Shown here piece after piece: positions 61,356 to 63,490 of a stretch of 64,000 bases of DNA. The notes below the pieces were generated by a model that was not told the origin of the DNA, did not search any database, and saw only the letters and a list, made by a program, of their open reading frames with translations. Within the stretch, counting starts at the first letter, position 1. Each line of letters begins with the position of its first letter. Source of the stretch: Sphingomonadales bacterium (GTDB taxonomy: Bacteria > Pseudomonadota > Alphaproteobacteria > SMXS01). The position numbers and the translations under genes are program-made. The stretch spans positions 1 through 64,000 of the forward strand of contig JALHLV010000014.1 in the NCBI GenBank assembly GCA_022844405.1. Direction: 5' to 3'.

Positions 61356-61799
61356 CTAAGGCGTCGCGCCCTCGTCCTCGAGCGCCAGCCGTTGCAGGAC
61401 CTTGAACAGTTCCTCGGATTCCATGCGGGCGGGACTGTAGCCGGTATCATCGGCAATGGCACCGTAGCGCGCGGCGTCCGGCACCGACGCGCCGACGAAG
61501 GCCATCGACCAGTGCGCGAAGGCACGCGCCGGCGCCGATGCAAAAGACAGCAGGTGGACATCGGAATGGCGCGGATCCATCTGGATTCGCTCGAAGATTT
61601 GTTCCACCGCGTCCGGCGCGCCCTCCAGGACCTGGCCGAAACAGCCGGCATTGAACATCAGCGCGCCGGTGACGTTGGCCAGGGGATTGTTGCGGCGGCT
61701 CACCTCAAGAATACTGTTGATGCCAGCCTCCAGCGCCGCAGGCGAGCCAACGATGCGGTTGTGGCTGTAATAGACAAGGCGGTACACGGTCTCGGTCAT
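61356..61799 (-). CDS. BLUF-domain blue-light receptor
   Basis: A 147-residue protein that is almost entirely one BLUF domain, the FAD-binding blue-light sensor. All residues of the photocycle are present by alignment with AppA: Tyr10 (RLVYYSHN), Asn38 (SRRNNPLANVTGAL), Gln56 (GCFGQVLEG), Trp97 and Met99 (FAHWSMAF). There is a short tail of about 40 residues and no output domain, so it must act through a partner. AAGGAGA lies six bases before the ATG, and the ATG overlaps the stop of the GGDEF-EAL gene (ATGA). The partner is therefore almost certainly that protein, as in the PapB-PapA pair of Rhodopseudomonas palustris. Confidence 0.92.
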   Translation of the reverse strand: MTETVYRLVYYSHNRIVGSPAALEAGINSILEVSRRNNPLANVTGALMFNAGCFGQVLEGAPDAVEQIFERIQMDPRHSDVHLLSFASAPARAFAHWSMAFVGASVPDAARYGAIADDTGYSPARMESEELFKVLQRLALEDEGATP

Positions 61800-63490
61800 G
61801 GGGGGTCTCCTTGCACGGCGGTCGGCGATGGCGATTCGGCGGCGAGCGCCGCCGCCGCGGCGGCATCCATTGGCCGCCCGGTAAGGTAGCCCTGGACCTC
61901 GGTGCAGCCTTCCGCCCTGACCTGGGCCAGTTGCTCCTCCGTCTCGACGCCTTCGACGATCGTCGCGATGCCGAGACTGTTCCCGAGCGCCGTGACGGCG
62001 CGGATGATGGCCATGCCCTTGGAGCCATCCCCCGATCCCCCGACGAAGGACTGGTCGACCTTGAGCCTGTCGAATGGAAACTTCTGCAGATAGGTGAGCG
62101 AGGAATATCCCGTGCCGAAATCGTCCATGGCAACCCGGACACCCAGCGACTTCACGGCATGCAATTGCTCCAGAACAGACTGCGTGCTGTTGATCAGCAC
62201 GCTTTCGGTGATCTCCAGTTCGAGGCGCCCGGGATCCAGCCCCGAGGCGTTCAGCGCGGATGTAACGATCTGCACCAACCTCGCGTTGTTGAACTGCACC
62301 GCGGAAACATTGACGCCGACGGAGACGGGCTGCGACCACGACGCCGCCTGCCGGCACGCGGTTTGCAGAACCCATTCACCAATGGGCACGATCAGGCCGG
62401 TCTGCTCGGCCAGCGGAATGAAGTCGGCCGGCGAAACGAGACCCCGCGCCGGCGTGCGCCAACGCAACAATGCCTCGAAGCCAACCAGCCGGCGCGGATC
62501 CAGTTCGACCTGCGGCTGGAAGTTCAGCTCGAACTGCCTAAATGCCAACGCGCTGCGCAAATCCAGCTCGAGCAGCCGGCGCGCCTGCATTTCCTCATCC
62601 ATGCTGATCTGGAAGAAGCGAAAGACGCCCTTGCCATCGGTCTTTGCACGGTAGAGCGCCAGGTCCGCATGCTTCAGCAAACTGTCGACATCCTCACCAT
62701 CGCCGGGCGACAGGGCGATGCCAATGCTGGTGCCGACGTTGAGGATCTGGCCGGAGACGATATAGGTGCGTCCGATCAGGTCCACCAGGCGCGTCGCCAA
62801 CGCGGTTGCCGCTTGCGGCTGCGCCGCGTCGGACTGGAGGATCATGAACTCGTCGCCGCCCATACGGGCCAGGATGTCGCTCGGCCGCAGGGCGGAGCGC
62901 AGGCGTTCGGCCACCTTGACCAGCAGGGCGTCACCCATCGGATGGCCCATCGTGTCGTTAACCGACTTGAAATGGTCCAGGTCGAGCGAGATGACGGCGA
63001 ATGGTGCCTGGGTTCGCTGGAACTCTGCCAGCAGCACGGACAGGCGTTCCCGCAATTCGACGCGATTCGGCAGCCCGGTAAGGGGATCGCGCCTGGCCAA
63101 GTCGGCTTCGTGAATATAGAGGCCCACATCGAGCAGCGTCACGACGGCGCCGCCATCCGGCAGGGGGCAAGAGCGTGTGTCCAATATGCGGCCGCCGGCC
63201 AAGCCGATCCGGATCGGGGCACTGGCCGTGCGTGATCGTGTCGCCTCGACGAGAGCGCTGCCATTGGAGACGCCGGAGAGGTCCAGGAACGTGAGCAACT
63301 GGATGCCGACGGGCCCCGGTCCAGGGAAGAGCGCGCTGGCGCTCCGGTTGGCGAAGGTGACAAAGCCGTCGCTGCCGATGGTCAGCACACCGCCGGCCAG
63401 CTCGGAGAGCACGTCCGCCGGCGTTACCGCGAACCTGGGGCGCGCTGGCAATTGCGCTGCGGCCAACAGAGCGACATGGTCCTCGGTCAA
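61796..63490 (-). CDS. Dual GGDEF-EAL c-di-GMP enzyme with PAS-like N-terminus
   Basis: A 564-residue cytosolic protein. Residues about 22-120 form a PAS-like domain. The diguanylate cyclase domain has an intact GGDEF at 211-215 and an inhibitory I-site RPSD at 202-205, exactly five residues before it. The phosphodiesterase domain has an intact EAL at 339-341 (GFEALLRW), plus ELEITES, MDDFGTGYSSL and IVEGVETEEQ. Both activities could therefore be real. The start is a TTG at 63490 without a good ribosome site; no better in-frame start exists before the PAS region. It is translationally coupled to the BLUF gene downstream, which suggests blue-light control of c-di-GMP synthesis or breakdown. 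Confidence 0.92.
   Translation of the reverse strand: MTEDHVALLAAAQLPARPRFAVTPADVLSELAGGVLTIGSDGFVTFANRSASALFPGPGPVGIQLLTFLDLSGVSNGSALVEATRSRTASAPIRIGLAGGRILDTRSCPLPDGGAVVTLLDVGLYIHEADLARRDPLTGLPNRVELRERLSVLLAEFQRTQAPFAVISLDLDHFKSVNDTMGHPMGDALLVKVAERLRSALRPSDILARMGGDEFMILQSDAAQPQAATALATRLVDLIGRTYIVSGQILNVGTSIGIALSPGDGEDVDSLLKHADLALYRAKTDGKGVFRFFQISMDEEMQARRLLELDLRSALAFRQFELNFQPQVELDPRRLVGFEALLRWRTPARGLVSPADFIPLAEQTGLIVPIGEWVLQTACRQAASWSQPVSVGVNVSAVQFNNARLVQIVTSALNASGLDPGRLELEITESVLINSTQSVLEQLHAVKSLGVRVAMDDFGTGYSSLTYLQKFPFDRLKVDQSFVGGSGDGSKGMAIIRAVTALGNSLGIATIVEGVETEEQLAQVRAEGCTEVQGYLTGRPMDAAAAAALAAESPSPTAVQGDPP

Follow-up and report, generated by a model that had tools for sequence, protein, structure and literature searches.

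A PapB-type BLUF gene overlapping a GGDEF-EAL gene

The window, by which we mean the whole 64,000-nucleotide stretch of DNA analyzed, carries two overlapping genes on its minus strand. The upstream gene (61796..63490, minus strand) was defined by its open reading frame and translation and encodes a GGDEF-EAL protein of 564 amino acids, a PapA-type partner. It begins with TTG; inspection of the sequence found no clear Shine-Dalgarno sequence at this codon, and the position of the start is uncertain. The downstream gene (61356..61799, minus strand), recognized from its open reading frame, Pfam and the AlphaFold2 fold, encodes a stand-alone, PapB-type BLUF protein of 147 amino acids. It has a strong Shine-Dalgarno sequence, AGGAG (61807..61811, minus strand), located 7 nt ahead of its ATG and within the 3' end of the GGDEF-EAL gene. 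The two genes have four bases in common, ATGA (61796..61799, minus strand), and both the coordinates and the shared bases bear out the overlap described in the initial annotation. A BLUF-EAL fusion, or a fusion disrupted by a frameshift, was ruled out: there are two open reading frames in different frames, the second with a good Shine-Dalgarno sequence. The gene upstream of the pair (G000:C14:63984-64607, minus strand) encodes a 207-aa protein for which none of nine related genomes gave a match; the region around the pair is therefore variable.

The BLUF core occupies residues 6-100 (61500..61784, minus strand) and contains Y10, N38, Q56, W97 and M99 according to Pfam, the translation and the alignment. 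Its Pfam BLUF score is 91 bits against a cut-off of 25, no second family exceeds its cut-off in the 147-aa protein, and no NCBIfam family matched it at E 0.001. The four residues singled out earlier, Tyr10, Asn38, Gln56 and Trp97, are all present in the translation; Y10, S12, N38, Q56, W97 and M99 are invariant among 39 aligned paired BLUFs. The AlphaFold2 model (mean pLDDT 88) matches the solved BLUF structures TePixD, PixD, AppA, BlsA and BlrB. The model also places two cap helices at the C-terminus, at residues 106-119 and 128-142 (61374..61484, minus strand). The C-terminal helices of PapB are a proposed signaling route to its EAL partner (PMC8846402; PMC10634658). For the window BLUF the prediction concerns the presence of the helices only, and a corresponding function would follow by analogy. 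Many Methylobacterium-type BLUFs of the same subfamily (L036, L038, L039, L112 and others) carry a C-terminal extension of ∼60-230 residues past the cap helices, and a similar 309-aa protein of M. radiotolerans is catalogued as BLUF+PRK09039 in a review (PMC8508746).

The partner protein consists of a PAS-like N-terminal domain, a GGDEF domain at residues 133-287 (62630..63094, minus strand; Pfam PF00990) and an EAL phosphodiesterase domain at residues 310-540 (61871..62563, minus strand; Pfam PF00563). The two Pfam domains score 156 bits (cut-off 23.8) and 235 bits (cut-off 31.3), respectively, and no GGDEF-EAL equivalog in NCBIfam reaches its cut-off for this protein. The catalytic residues of the EAL domain are intact: the EAL motif is found at residues 339-341 (62468..62476, minus strand), and the site as a whole retains FEALLR, VNVSA, LEITES, DDFGTGYS (loop 6), LKVDQ, VEGVE and EVQGY. 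The motifs of the cyclase site are likewise intact, comprising GGDEF at residues 211-215 (62846..62860, minus strand), the GTP/metal-binding DLDHFKSVND, and the RxxD I-site, R202-P-S-D205, which ends five residues before GGDEF (62876..62887, minus strand). The GGDEF, EAL and I-site motifs (I-site at 202-205) were thus each found in the translation where the initial annotation had placed them, and the completeness of the motif residues rules out a degenerate GGDEF or EAL domain in the window protein.

The PAS-like assignment of the N-terminus (residues 24-121; 63128..63421, minus strand) gained support from both the model and the homologues. In the AlphaFold2 model, where pLDDT of this region lies in blocks of ∼71-89, the elements follow a PAS-type order of strands and helices (H24-29, E34-38, E43-46, H49-54, H65-71, H77-85, E93-96, E102-109 and E115-121). 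The Pfam PAS_7 family is below its cut-off in the window protein (E=0.017) and is matched in eight of ten aligned homologues, with the best E=3e-9. By inference, the domain may provide a second sensory input.

The AlphaFold2 model of the partner (mean pLDDT 84) finds its best structural match in the GTP-bound GGDEF-EAL region of RmcA/PA0575, with further matches to MorA, DosP and PA0861/RbdA. RmcA/PA0575 and RbdA/PA0861 of Pseudomonas aeruginosa (structural matches 5m3c, 5xgb, 5xgd and 5xge) share with the window protein the PAS-GGDEF-EAL arrangement and two intact motifs, but unlike the window pair they are single larger proteins, and we know of no BLUF partner for either. In RmcA, GTP binding by the GGDEF domain controls the phosphodiesterase (PMC7825114). 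Both RmcA and RbdA are GTP-dependent phosphodiesterases for which synthesis was undetected in vitro in spite of the intact motifs (PMC10874727); MucR and MorA are bifunctional in vitro (PMC10874727, PMC7825114). By analogy with RmcA and RbdA, intact cyclase motifs would be insufficient to establish cyclase activity. These proteins and the structural match to GTP-bound RmcA favor a reading in which the GGDEF domain of the window partner binds GTP without cyclizing it, and light and GTP jointly set the activity of the phosphodiesterase. We put the chances of this GTP-gated phosphodiesterase a little short of even. It is weakened by the intact state of three elements, the I-site, the metal-binding DxD and the GGDEF motif itself, since a pure GTP sensor can make do with less, as illustrated by the degenerate GDSIF motif of FimX (PMC8846402).

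Recurrence of the pair and its relation to PapB-PapA

No match to the window BLUF was obtained in six congeners or in three further genomes of its family. Likewise, in a class-wide sample only one of 385 genomes reaches E 1e-20 with the BLUF query, and this is the window's own. The window pair is therefore the sole one in the sample of its genus and family, and congeners offer no guide to its function. A scan for the BLUF protein in named genomes recovered 12 relatives, in Methylorubrum, Methylobacterium, Rhodoblastus, Consotaella, a Geminicoccaceae MAG, a Pseudolabrys MAG and Glaciecola, and in nine cases the BLUF gene is immediately preceded on its strand by a GGDEF-EAL gene. Family surveys around Methylorubrum and Pseudolabrys, together with neighborhood retrieval, brought the total to 40 loci besides the window, mostly in Hyphomicrobiales, at which a BLUF gene of the same subfamily directly follows a GGDEF-EAL gene on the same strand; duplicate retrievals are counted once, and the surveys sampled genomes picked around these loci, so that 40 is a count and not a frequency. 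The search for the pair in other genomes, which the initial annotation had suggested, thus yielded 40 further loci with the same arrangement. Chance adjacency of the two genes was ruled out by this recurrence. Outside the 40 stand L170, whose partner is frame-broken, and L219, a gammaproteobacterial locus with an intact GGDEF.

We compared these loci with a background set of 84 other BLUF loci (29 alphaproteobacterial, 29 gammaproteobacterial, and 12 and 14 weaker hits). An EAL domain was found within ∼1.5 kb at three of the 84: L023, where it is on the opposite strand, L219 and L094. The latter two are members of the subfamily with the same arrangement, and L094 coincides with L191, one of the 40 loci counted above. 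The survey of the 29 gammaproteobacterial loci gave one clear same-strand pair, L219. On the BLUF tree, the paired BLUFs are clustered, requiring eight changes compared to a mean of 20.5 after shuffling, with weak deep branches.

Several BLUFs of the subfamily (L040/L111, L043/L109, L110, L113 and L117) have no EAL gene nearby. Together with the Rhodoblastus sequences they form a supported group on the BLUF tree (96/94), and they may act on another target. Loci of this kind (L040, L043, L113 and L117), and the stand-alone BLUF BlsA, which acts on several proteins (PMC8508746), lend some weight to the idea that the window BLUF too serves another target and that its adjacency to the GGDEF-EAL gene reflects co-expression only. 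We regard this as very improbable, as the adjacency is conserved across distant genomes, the partners belong to one main clade, and the PapB-PapA complex has been characterized.

Which of the pairs corresponds to PapB-PapA can be approached through the reaction center. In four genomes (G779, G625, G723 and G768) the M chain (PufM) is ∼96-98% identical to PDB 6z5r/6z5s, which we take to be R. palustris entries. Each of these genomes has one BLUF of the subfamily with an EAL partner directly upstream (L158, L161, L160 and L167). No EAL partner was seen for the other close BLUFs examined in the four genomes, among which L172 (G625) has its upstream side ending with the contig. Judging by the reaction-center type and the sole EAL-adjacent BLUF, the L158, L160, L161 and L167 pairs are very probably papB-papA itself. 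The partners of this Rhodopseudomonas type have a degenerate GGDEF motif (EADEF/DADEF) in a domain that still scores ∼122 bits with Pfam GGDEF (L158, L167). The window BLUF is 45-48% identical to the BLUFs of these four loci over the full length, with the deep order of the BLUF tree unresolved, and the window partner belongs to the same group of 40 rows on the partner tree as their partners.

According to a review (PMC8846402), PapB, a short BLUF protein, and PapA, presented there as a solo EAL protein, make up a heterotetramer whose phosphodiesterase is stimulated by blue light. The window pair resembles PapB-PapA in having a stand-alone BLUF of the same subfamily with cap helices, an EAL partner and the same gene order. 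It differs in that the GGDEF motif, the I-site and DLDHFKSVND of the partner are intact. The initial annotation had assigned the pair to the PapB-PapA kind and set it against an EAL-only PapA. The kinship is upheld by the conserved gene order, the relationship to the Rhodopseudomonas-type loci and the fold; the contrast holds at the active site but is smaller than proposed, because the Rhodopseudomonas-type partner also has a GGDEF domain, albeit a degenerate one. The presence of this domain, set against the solo EAL architecture given in the review (PMC8846402), suggests that PapA is a product of GGDEF decay. By sequence criteria, the window pair is a PapB-PapA-type module, a variant with an intact cyclase site and not the identical system.

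Fate of the GGDEF domain among the partners

The partner tree places 40 rows, representing 39 distinct loci with the window included, on one side of a 96/81 branch (L184 repeats L039). The other side holds 13 other GGDEF-EAL proteins along with the partners of L041 and L183. The position of these two outside the main partner clade shows that the identity of the partner across pairs is not absolutely fixed. At L183 (G396:C69:1-8000), a BLUF of the subfamily adjoins a GGDEF-EAL protein from outside the main clade, a possible case of partner exchange.

All 41 partners retain the catalytic EAL residues, E339, N394, E426, E429, D456, D457, K477, E513 and Q533 in the numbering of the window protein. 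Departures within the EAL motifs affect neighboring positions only: ESL in L162, EVL in L163, LEIRES in L041 and DDYG in L183. The GGDEF motif, on the other hand, is intact in 23 of the 41 partners, the window included, and broken in the remaining 18. Two of the loci that keep the motif, L163 and L166, have lost the DLDxFKxxND motif, making cyclase activity unlikely there too. On the partner tree, which was computed with the GGDEF motif columns retained, the GGDEF state requires at least six changes, a count that does not separate gain from loss. The variety among the degenerate motifs (DGASF, ASDEF, DDGKF, YGDQF, EADEF and GGDAF) leads us to read most of these changes as losses. The retention of the EAL residues in every partner and the repeated loss of GGDEF suggest that phosphodiesterase activity is the robust output of the family as a whole. 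This pattern of an invariant EAL site and a dispensable GGDEF site agrees with the GTP-gated phosphodiesterase described above, under which the degenerate lineages would have lost or loosened the GTP input.

Where the GGDEF domain is intact, it is conserved almost as strongly as the EAL domain. For partner pairs with EAL identity of 45-75%, GGDEF identity is below EAL identity by 4.5 points when both motifs are intact, by 13.5 points when one is and by 19.8 points when neither is; as the pairs are not independent, no test is attached to these differences. Between the window partner and those of Methylorubrum, the GGDEF domains are 67-69% identical and the EAL domains 62%. We conclude that selection maintains the intact GGDEF domain, that of the window partner included, a result equally compatible with cyclase activity and with GTP binding.

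The same observations bear on the possibility that both domains are active and that blue light shifts the balance between them, with synthesis of c-di-GMP in the dark and its degradation in the light, or vice versa. The intact catalytic sites and I-site, and the near-equal conservation of GGDEF and EAL in the intact lineages, speak for such an enzyme. Precedents for a shift of this kind exist (PMC8846402). In Shewanella woodyi, the separate sensor SwH-NOX moves the functional GGDEF-EAL enzyme SwDGC between synthesis and breakdown, although SwH-NOX is a heme protein responding to NO and not a flavin photoreceptor. In Thermosynechococcus, light shifts the cyclase and phosphodiesterase activities of the single GGDEF-EAL enzyme SesC, the sensor in this case being a bilin-binding GAF domain on the same chain. 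By analogy with both systems, a light-driven reversal of c-di-GMP turnover, as raised in the initial annotation, is possible. Against it stand the degeneracy of GGDEF in close to half of the partners, which implies that the light-coupled function needs no cyclase, and the failure of RmcA and RbdA to show synthesis in vitro (PMC10874727). We consider a light-switched bifunctional enzyme conceivable but rather unlikely. Slightly more doubtful still is the extension of this idea to the whole family, according to which the reversal of turnover by a stand-alone BLUF acting on a truly bifunctional enzyme was the ancestral state of PapB-PapA, and the cyclase was later lost several times, leaving light-activated phosphodiesterases.

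A putative blue-light switch and its phototrophic setting

Taken together, the pair is probably a PapB-PapA-type blue-light switch in which the GGDEF and EAL domains act together, the former as a GTP-binding module or as a competing cyclase. The two proteins would be translated together and form a complex, in which the BLUF protein would bind FAD and respond to light. The signal may then pass via the cap helices to the partner and alter its phosphodiesterase activity. The intact GGDEF domain would contribute either as a GTP-binding allosteric module, which we think somewhat more likely, or as a competing active cyclase, and the PAS-like N-terminus could serve as a dimerization or second-input module. 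We infer the enzyme activities of the window partner; the sign of the light effect, taken by analogy from PapB-PapA, could differ.

BLUF domains coupled to an EAL output are known in BlrP1, BluF/YcgF (BLUF-EAL) and BldP (a BLUF phosphodiesterase). In contrast to the window pair, which consists of two proteins and has a GGDEF domain in addition, BlrP1 and BluF have BLUF and EAL on one polypeptide. BLUF has also been recorded on one chain with GGDEF/EAL domains (PMC4844311, PMC8508746). A limited search of the open literature did not turn up any account of a stand-alone BLUF whose GGDEF-EAL partner enzyme is intact at both sites.

The genome of the window contains two photosynthetic reaction-center genes (PF00124; G000:C26:23191-24857, L226 and L227). 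They are absent from the six congeners and present in one other genome of the family. The reaction-center genes and the BLUF pair are both apparent oddities of this species within its genus. Reaction-center genes are present in 14 of the 15 pair-bearing genomes of the Pseudolabrys/Rhodopseudomonas family, the exception being G787, whose partner gene is split between frames (L170, G787:C1:6353500-6359500). Although the numbers are small, the module thus seems to accompany phototrophy in that family.

Pairs of this type are candidates for a two-part optogenetic tool acting on c-di-GMP. More broadly, the family offers a natural series for studying the role of an intact GGDEF domain beside a working EAL domain: the main difference between related light-controlled pairs is the state of the GGDEF site, and light is a clean and reversible trigger. 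Contrasting the window or Methylorubrum pair with a Rhodopseudomonas pair would directly reveal if the contribution of the GGDEF domain is synthesis, a GTP input, or neither of the two.
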